From Flavobacteriales bacterium (GTDB taxonomy: Bacteria; Bacteroidota; Bacteroidia; Flavobacteriales; Flavobacteriaceae), in assembly GCA_027066365.1 (NCBI GenBank), contig JAMONV010000052.1, positions 1 to 32,148 on the forward strand: DNA of 32,148 bases, read 5' to 3'. Shown piece after piece: positions 30,212-32,148 of the stretch (position 1 is its first letter; every line of letters begins with the position of its first letter). Made by a program: the position numbers and the translations under genes. The notes beneath the pieces are model-generated. The model was given only the letters and a program-made list of their open reading frames with translations, was not told where the DNA came from and did not search any database.

Positions 30212-30844
30212 ATGATTGAATTTGAGAATGTTTCGTTGAATTGGGATGATAGAATTATTTTCCGCGATTTGAGTTTTTCGGTCAAACCGGGTGAAAAAGT
30301 GGCATTGGTCGGGGAATCCGGGAGCGGGAAATCGACTTTATTGAATCTTATACCGGGTTTTATTCCGCATTTTAGGGGGAAAATAGTTGTGGACGGCTTA
30401 ATTCTGAATGCTACAAACGTGCATGCGATTCGACAAAAATTGGCTTACGTGCCCCAAGCATTGCAATTTACGGTATTTCCCACGGTGAAATCTTTGTTTT
30501 TTACGCCTTTTTCTTTTGTTTATAACCGGAAATTGAAACCGGATCGAAAGGTTGTTCGTATGCTTTTCGAACGTTTTGAATTATCGACCGATTTATTGAA
30601 TCGCTCCGTGAAGGAAATATCCGGTGGACAGAAACAAAGGATTTTGCTAGCCGGCGCATTGCTCTTGAAGCGGCCGGTTTTGCTTTTGGATGAGCCTACT
30701 TCGGCTTTGAATAAGGAAATCAAACAGGCGGTGGCGGATTATATCTTGGGTTTAAAGGATGTGACGGTGATTGCCGCTACGCACGATGAATATTGGATGA
30801 AAAAATCGGATAAGATATTGGAAATAAAAAATTTACATGGATGA
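30212..30844 (+). CDS. ABC transporter ATP-binding protein, FetA/YbbL-like
   Basis: 210 aa, a short ABC ATPase. Walker A is GESGSGKST (34-42), the signature is ISGGQKQR (about 136-143), Walker B is VLLLDEPT (about 156-163) and the switch His is in THDE. The size and its partner, a UPF0014 permease, indicate the FetAB pair, which in E. coli exports iron and relieves peroxide stress; the substrate here is inferred only from that. The stop overlaps the permease start (ATGA), typical of a coupled pair. Confidence 0.88.
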   Translation: MIEFENVSLNWDDRIIFRDLSFSVKPGEKVALVGESGSGKSTLLNLIPGFIPHFRGKIVVDGLILNATNVHAIRQKLAYVPQALQFTVFPTVKSLFFTPFSFVYNRKLKPDRKVVRMLFERFELSTDLLNRSVKEISGGQKQRILLAGALLLKRPVLLLDEPTSALNKEIKQAVADYILGLKDVTVIAATHDEYWMKKSDKILEIKNLHG

Positions 30845-31638
30845 AGGGAGCTGTTGACATAGCATGGTGGATGCTTGCGTCGGGTTATTTGTTGATGTTT
30901 ATACCTTTGGCTATTTTCCGCTACTACCGTTCCGGTTTGGAAAAGGCCACGGTTTGGGCGGTAATCCGAATGACCGTTCAACTTTTATTAGTGGGATTAT
31001 ATCTGGAATATATTTTCAAATGGGACAGCCCGCTAATTAATTTTACTTGGGTGTTTGTTATGACCATTGTGGCTTCTTACACGGTGATTAAACGAACGGG
31101 TTTGCGATTGCGTATGTTTTTCGTTCCGGTTTTGTTGTCTACTTTGGCCAGCATCGTTTTAATCGATTATTATTTTCTTGGTTTTGTTATCGGTTTAAAA
31201 AATATTTTTACGGCACGATACTTTATTCCGATTACGGGGATGTTGCTGGGAAATTCTTTGAAAAATGTAATTATTGCTTTGGATTCGTTTTTCCGCAGGA
31301 TTGATGACGAACAAATAACTTATCGTTGGGAATTGGCTAACGGCGCTACACGGTCCGAAGCGCTTTTGCCGTTTATGCGATTCGCTTTGAAAAAAGCATT
31401 TAATCCGTTGATTGCAACAACGGCCATCATGGGTTTGATTTCTTTGCCGGGCATGATGACGGGGCAGATTTTGGGCGGAAGCGATCCTATGGTTGCCGTA
31501 AAATACCAAATCATGATTTTGGTGGTTATTTTTTCATCTACATCGTTGAATGTTTGGTTGACAATTATTTTTTCGGAGCGGGTTGCCTTTGACGGATTCG
31601 ATAACTTAAGGCGTGAAATTTTTTCCGGTCATAGGTAA
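30841..31638 (+). CDS. ABC transporter permease, FetB/YbbM (UPF0014) family
   Basis: 265 aa with about seven hydrophobic segments. The UPF0014 signature SLPGMMTGQILGGSDP (about 200-215) and ITGMLLGNSLKN (about 130-141) are clear. Paired with the preceding ATPase it forms an inner-membrane exporter. It is translationally coupled to the ATPase. Nothing follows on the same transcript except, at some distance, the decayed methyltransferase. Confidence 0.9.
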   Translation: MKGAVDIAWWMLASGYLLMFIPLAIFRYYRSGLEKATVWAVIRMTVQLLLVGLYLEYIFKWDSPLINFTWVFVMTIVASYTVIKRTGLRLRMFFVPVLLSTLASIVLIDYYFLGFVIGLKNIFTARYFIPITGMLLGNSLKNVIIALDSFFRRIDDEQITYRWELANGATRSEALLPFMRFALKKAFNPLIATTAIMGLISLPGMMTGQILGGSDPMVAVKYQIMILVVIFSSTSLNVWLTIIFSERVAFDGFDNLRREIFSGHR

Positions 31639-31696: not shown

Positions 31697-32148
31697 ATGA
31701 AAAAATATCTTTCTATCAGCCAAGTAGCCAAAATTTTAGGCGTGAGCACTGAAACCCTACGGCGATGGGATAACGACGGTTAGTTCAAAAGTTCTAGGAA
31801 TCCCATTAATAATTACAGGGTTTATTCCGAAGAACAAGTGGAAAATTTTATTCGTGAAATGCAATTGGAATTTGATTTTTCCCCGCGGGTTAAAGATGAA
31901 AATCAAACCTTAAATATTTCCCGAAATCCTGAAATTACACCTTATTTTGAAACCGGATACGGTAAACTATATCACTATGATGCCGTTGAATTTCTAACGA
32001 GAAGTCAGGCGGAAACTTCCCGGTATGCCAACGGCAAGAAGAAAAAATACCATTGGACCCCGCATCCTTTGGGCGCCAAACCGAAAGATGTATTTGAAAT
32101 TCCCACCATTTCCAACGGGGCATGGGAAAAATATCCCCACGTAACCCA
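31697..32148 (+). pseudogene. Relic of a MerR-HTH adenine/cytosine DNA methyltransferase
   Basis: From ATG 31697 the frame reads a MerR-type helix-turn-helix (LSISQVAKILGVSTETLRRWDNDG), then a TAG at 31781-31783 (codon 29), then continues in frame: FKSSRNPINNYRVYSEEQVE. Next is GYGKLYHYDAVEFL (about codons 86-99), where beta-class N6/N4 methyltransferases have the target-strand block just before DPPY. Here, though, the sequence jumps within a few codons to SQAETSRYANGKKKKYHW and WTPHPLGAKPKDVFEIPTIS, and then to NGAWEKYPHVT, which in relatives lies about 100 or more residues later, before HPTQKPEEL. So the DPPY catalytic block appears to be missing. With the stop codon this makes a double lesion. 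The gene runs off the window; any later part cannot be seen. The family name comes from memory of homologues. Confidence 0.75.

Follow-up and report, generated by a model that had tools for sequence, protein, structure and literature searches.

A type II restriction-modification pair, very probably inactivated recently in both genes, in a Flavobacteriales genome

Among solved structures, the best sequence relative of an intact homologue of the methyltransferase gene studied here is the MboIIA methyltransferase (PDB 1G60; E 2e-39), with an N6_N4_Mtase domain, and beside it RsrI and CcrM are named as related methyltransferases. Compared with MboIIA, the homologues add an N-terminal MerR-type HTH, and the copy in our window lacks motif IV. 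For the partner nuclease, the closest described enzyme in predicted fold is Kpn2I, which the available text of PMC6344858 places among the CCGG-family endonucleases. The name Kpn2I for PDB entry 6EKR was taken from the entry title; 6EKR goes unmentioned in that text, and a literature search found no paper with this entry code. According to the portion of PMC4176335 consulted, total loss of restriction-modification systems is frequent, and solitary genes rarely arise by decay.

The window, a 32,148-nt stretch that makes up the entire contig C52 of genome G000 (a draft assembly of 64 contigs, 2.03 Mb, 99% complete), ends within a gene of this methyltransferase type. In the ORF translation, the plus-strand frame from the ATG at 31697 reaches the window end with a single stop, a TAG at 31781–31783. 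The fragment before it (31697–31780) contains the start and part of the MerR-type HTH, where two intact homologues that were scanned match MerR/HTH_17. Every one of the 12 distinct homologous ORFs spanning the TAG position has Lys there (L005–L008, L014, L015, L018–L022 and L025; L005 and L006 are near copies, and the 3′ end of L025 is cut by a contig end). The remaining HTH, the linker and a segment up to DAVEFL follow at 31784–31996. After the deletion junction, placed at 31997–31999 by alignment, the later part of the gene runs from 32000 to the contig end at 32148 and continues on contig C26 (251–509).

At this junction, FL^TRSQAETS (31991–32005), the frame after DAVEFL reads TRSQAETSRYANG. 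In all 11 complete homologues, the Y of the YxxD segment and KYP(K/E/R)R are 135 residues apart, and therefore 129 codons (387 bp) are absent from the window. The absent block starts after the FL of DAVEFL, contains ADPPYNI and stops just before R(S/T/K)Q, so that catalytic motif IV (DPPY), present in the 11 complete homologues, is missing from the remnant. A close intact allele, from which the exact end-points or microhomology could have been located, was not found. A preliminary description, made from the sequence alone, had proposed a MerR-HTH beta-class methyltransferase relic with two separate lesions, a TAG in place of an expected Lys and an in-frame loss of the DPPY block, and homologue alignment and family matches bear this out. 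The same description had allowed for homologues that naturally lack the block, of which there were none among the 11. Its argument from a clean in-frame excision carries no weight because retention of frame is a 1-in-3 event.

The final 250 bases of C52 (31899–32148, plus strand) equal C26:1–250 with two mismatches; one is silent and the other gives R on C52 and Q on C26 and in the aligned homologues. The shared sequence occurs in the genome only at these two contig ends, and a repeat-driven misjoin was dropped for this reason. The deletion junction is present at the matching place on C26, and the TAG, which falls outside the shared 250 bases, is known from C52 only. C26 extends the frame through TQKP and DPFGGSGTT, which we take to be the SAM-binding motif I and which the remnant retains, to a stop at C26 507–509; 3′ of the TAG, the frame comprises 207 codons with no further stop. 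Because its flanks show 66% and 78% identity to a related methyltransferase on either side of the gap, this frame is not a chance one. The C26 portion matches PF01555 (N6_N4_Mtase; E 3.5e-28, profile positions 120–220 of 221), the window portion after the TAG alone gave no Pfam methylase match, and the two intact homologues scanned match the full profile (E 1.9e-51 and 1.3e-54). Judged by its sequence, the remnant is a relic of a beta-class N6_N4 DNA methyltransferase and not a working member of the family. A second genomic copy was considered and dropped, as the genome search found no second or fuller methyltransferase copy elsewhere in the assembly.

Reading past 32148 onto C26 revealed the rest of the methyltransferase gene and the restriction partner that had been anticipated there. 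The convergent nuclease gene starts at C26 1225 on the minus strand, reads for 33 codons to a TAA, and resumes in another frame down to 498. The gap measures 44 nt here versus 198–201 nt in the homologues, i.e. 154 or 157 nt have been lost and the frame is broken; the homologue figure comes from the 5 rows of 14 in which the measuring pattern matched (3 of the 14 were partial). The genome search independently gave two nuclease pieces, one with an internal TAA. This deletion is known from one contig (C26) of the draft assembly. The methyltransferase is not 'orphaned', as had been suggested, because its partner remains, broken by a deletion and a frameshift, and the orphan interpretation was dropped.

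Pfam and NCBIfam assign no name to the nuclease. In the two intact relatives scanned with PADLOC, the nuclease was called as REase_II (E 1e-35 and 6e-33) and the methyltransferase as MTase_II (E 2e-66 and 1e-65). The predicted structure of the intact partner at locus L014 (pLDDT 86.9) matched Kpn2I (PDB 6EKR) with Z 25.6 over 267 residues (rmsd 2.8, 19% identity; Foldseek E 9.6e-13), the fold being that of this intact relative and not of the remnant; lower-ranked matches were PspGI (Z 14.7) and PfoI (Z 11.4). A sequence comparison of the intact partner with Kpn2I gave E 1e-12. An intact relative of the partner is thus predicted to be Kpn2I-like in fold, albeit at low identity, whereas the copy in the window's genome is broken.

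Some methyltransferase match was found in 18 of 60 genomes, G000 included. Within the genus, four of eight relatives (G003, G006, G007 and G008) carry the methyltransferase at 69–74% identity, and in the remainder it is weaker or absent. Of 21 matched loci, L027–L034 were left out as weak matches, and the methyltransferases of L016, L017 and L023, being those of L006, L005 and L007, were each counted once. Of the 14 distinct related loci, 13 gave a match to a convergent nuclease next to the methyltransferase, and in 11 its ORF is full-length; the single locus with no matched nuclease, L025, is cut off by a contig end. The nuclease of G003 (L007, L023) is odd-looking and lies at a contig end. 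Intact homologous pairs are found in G006 and G008 of the same genus and at L014, L015 and L018–L022, in records titled Bacteroidales, Tannerella and the like. These pairs resemble the relic in having a MerR-HTH methyltransferase and a convergent nuclease whose 3′ ends are adjacent or overlapping, but the relic differs by its TAG and 387-bp loss and by the frameshifting deletion in its nuclease. A pair on Lactiplantibacillus plasmids (NZ_CP035132, NZ_CP077103) also has methyltransferase (55%) and nuclease (31%) matches side by side; there, however, the methyltransferase match starts after the HTH and the genes are in tandem rather than convergent.

Two further observations concern these relatives. 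The N-terminal MerR/HTH_17 domain is present in the two intact methyltransferases scanned (e.g. L005 1501–2595), and such an HTH may let these methyltransferases regulate their own expression. The Tannerella genome Cd354_bin75, which holds an intact copy of the pair (L021), has a second, degraded copy (L026 1094–1877) in which only the 3′ parts of both genes were matched.

Upstream of the relic in the window lies a permease gene (30841–31638, plus strand), whose 78%-identical relative in G004 matches UPF0014. Of the genus relatives, G004 has the polA closest to that of G000 (87%). In G004 both permease and polA lie on a single contig, convergent as here, with about 10 kb of other genes separating them; this supports the join of C52 and C26. 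Both genes of the pair were searched for in G004 and neither was matched. Where G000 has the relic, the roughly 10-kb polA–permease interval of G004 (L061 2923–12355) includes genes for a hydrolase, an S74-peptidase protein and an OmpA protein. G007 has an intact pair directly beside polA, in the same placement as the G000 relic. Because polA adjoins it, the pair is probably chromosomal. At the opposite end of the window, bases 1–44 form a short, dispersed repeat found near contig ends: the first 33–44 bases recur at seven other genome sites, five of which sit 78–133 bases from a contig start.

Apart from the main lesions, decay was assessed at sites invariant in the other copies. The methyltransferase remnant differs at 2 of 101 such sites, one of them the Q/R difference peculiar to C52, and the nuclease remnant at 7 of 83. 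Both sets exclude L006 because it nearly duplicates L005, and the nuclease set also excludes L007, L023 and L026, which are partial. Open-frame copies range from 0 to 12/113 changes for the methyltransferase and from 0 to 33/113 for the nuclease, the highest values belonging to the divergent L008, whose frames are open and which is not dead. Because this background decay is slight, it suggests a recent death, and the earlier view that the gene has been 'dead for some time' is unsupported.

We consider it very likely that the locus held a type II restriction-modification pair whose two genes were recently inactivated. Slight decay would also be compatible with misassembly of an intact gene, or with intact copies elsewhere in the population, and both the TAG and the nuclease deletion are each known from one contig of a draft assembly. 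An artefact of this kind would mean that the cell has an intact pair and that the stop and the deletions come from mixed strains or from low coverage at a contig end. It would agree with the position of the C52/C26 break inside the methyltransferase gene and with the two mismatches in the 250-base overlap, which suggest strain mixture. It would, however, require three separate lesions across two genes, a fuller copy was not found elsewhere in the assembly, and the methyltransferase junction is present on two contigs that differ from each other, making a single misjoin unlikely. We therefore regard an artefact as improbable.

The open frame after the TAG could alternatively reflect a shortened but useful protein, the 207-codon frame or a readthrough product being kept for DNA or SAM binding. 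Its lack of further stops, the 2/101 invariant-site changes and the intact DPFGGSGTT are in keeping with this, but a recent death accounts for the same facts. Moreover, DPPY and its surrounding block are lost, a start codon would be needed inside the old HTH or linker, and the broken partner fits loss of the whole system. This explanation of the locus is barely plausible, and it is highly improbable that the 3′ part of the methyltransferase is translated and, with both activities gone, has been kept as a shortened protein that binds DNA or SAM. We give almost no credence to the idea that this organism translates TAG as an amino acid: although it is the lone stop in an otherwise open frame, TAG terminates 2 of the 22 window ORFs listed as genes and is therefore an ordinary stop here, on which ground recoding was dropped. 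Recoding would also leave the 387-bp loss and the broken partner unaffected.

As in a type II system, a cognate endonuclease gene, the convergent partner on C26, adjoins the methyltransferase gene; both genes are broken. In the favoured reading, recent inactivation of the pair, a MerR-HTH-fused beta-class methyltransferase would originally have been paired with a convergent Kpn2I-like endonuclease. Family matches point to N6-adenine as the probable target base, and in intact relatives both enzymes would act on a common site, the methyltransferase to protect it and the nuclease to cut it. Here the nuclease has lost about 155 nt and its frame, and the methyltransferase has a stop codon in the HTH and is missing the 387 bp that include catalytic motif IV. 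The nuclease was probably dead before the methyltransferase, although the evidence for this order is weak. According to the consulted part of PMC4176335, a cell may die if it loses the methyltransferase while its nuclease is active, and the greater invariant-site change in the nuclease is weakly in line with the order; against it, the divergent L008 shows still larger counts in both genes with its frames open. Because the nuclease frame is lost and the methyltransferase has a stop and no motif IV, it appears from the sequence that neither activity can be made from the present copy.

The locus clearly exemplifies the death of both genes of a restriction-modification system and is otherwise an ordinary case of a lost defence system. 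Intact relatives occur within the genus, and the closely related G004 has no match to either gene. The present case fits loss of the whole system, as argued in the available passages of PMC4176335.
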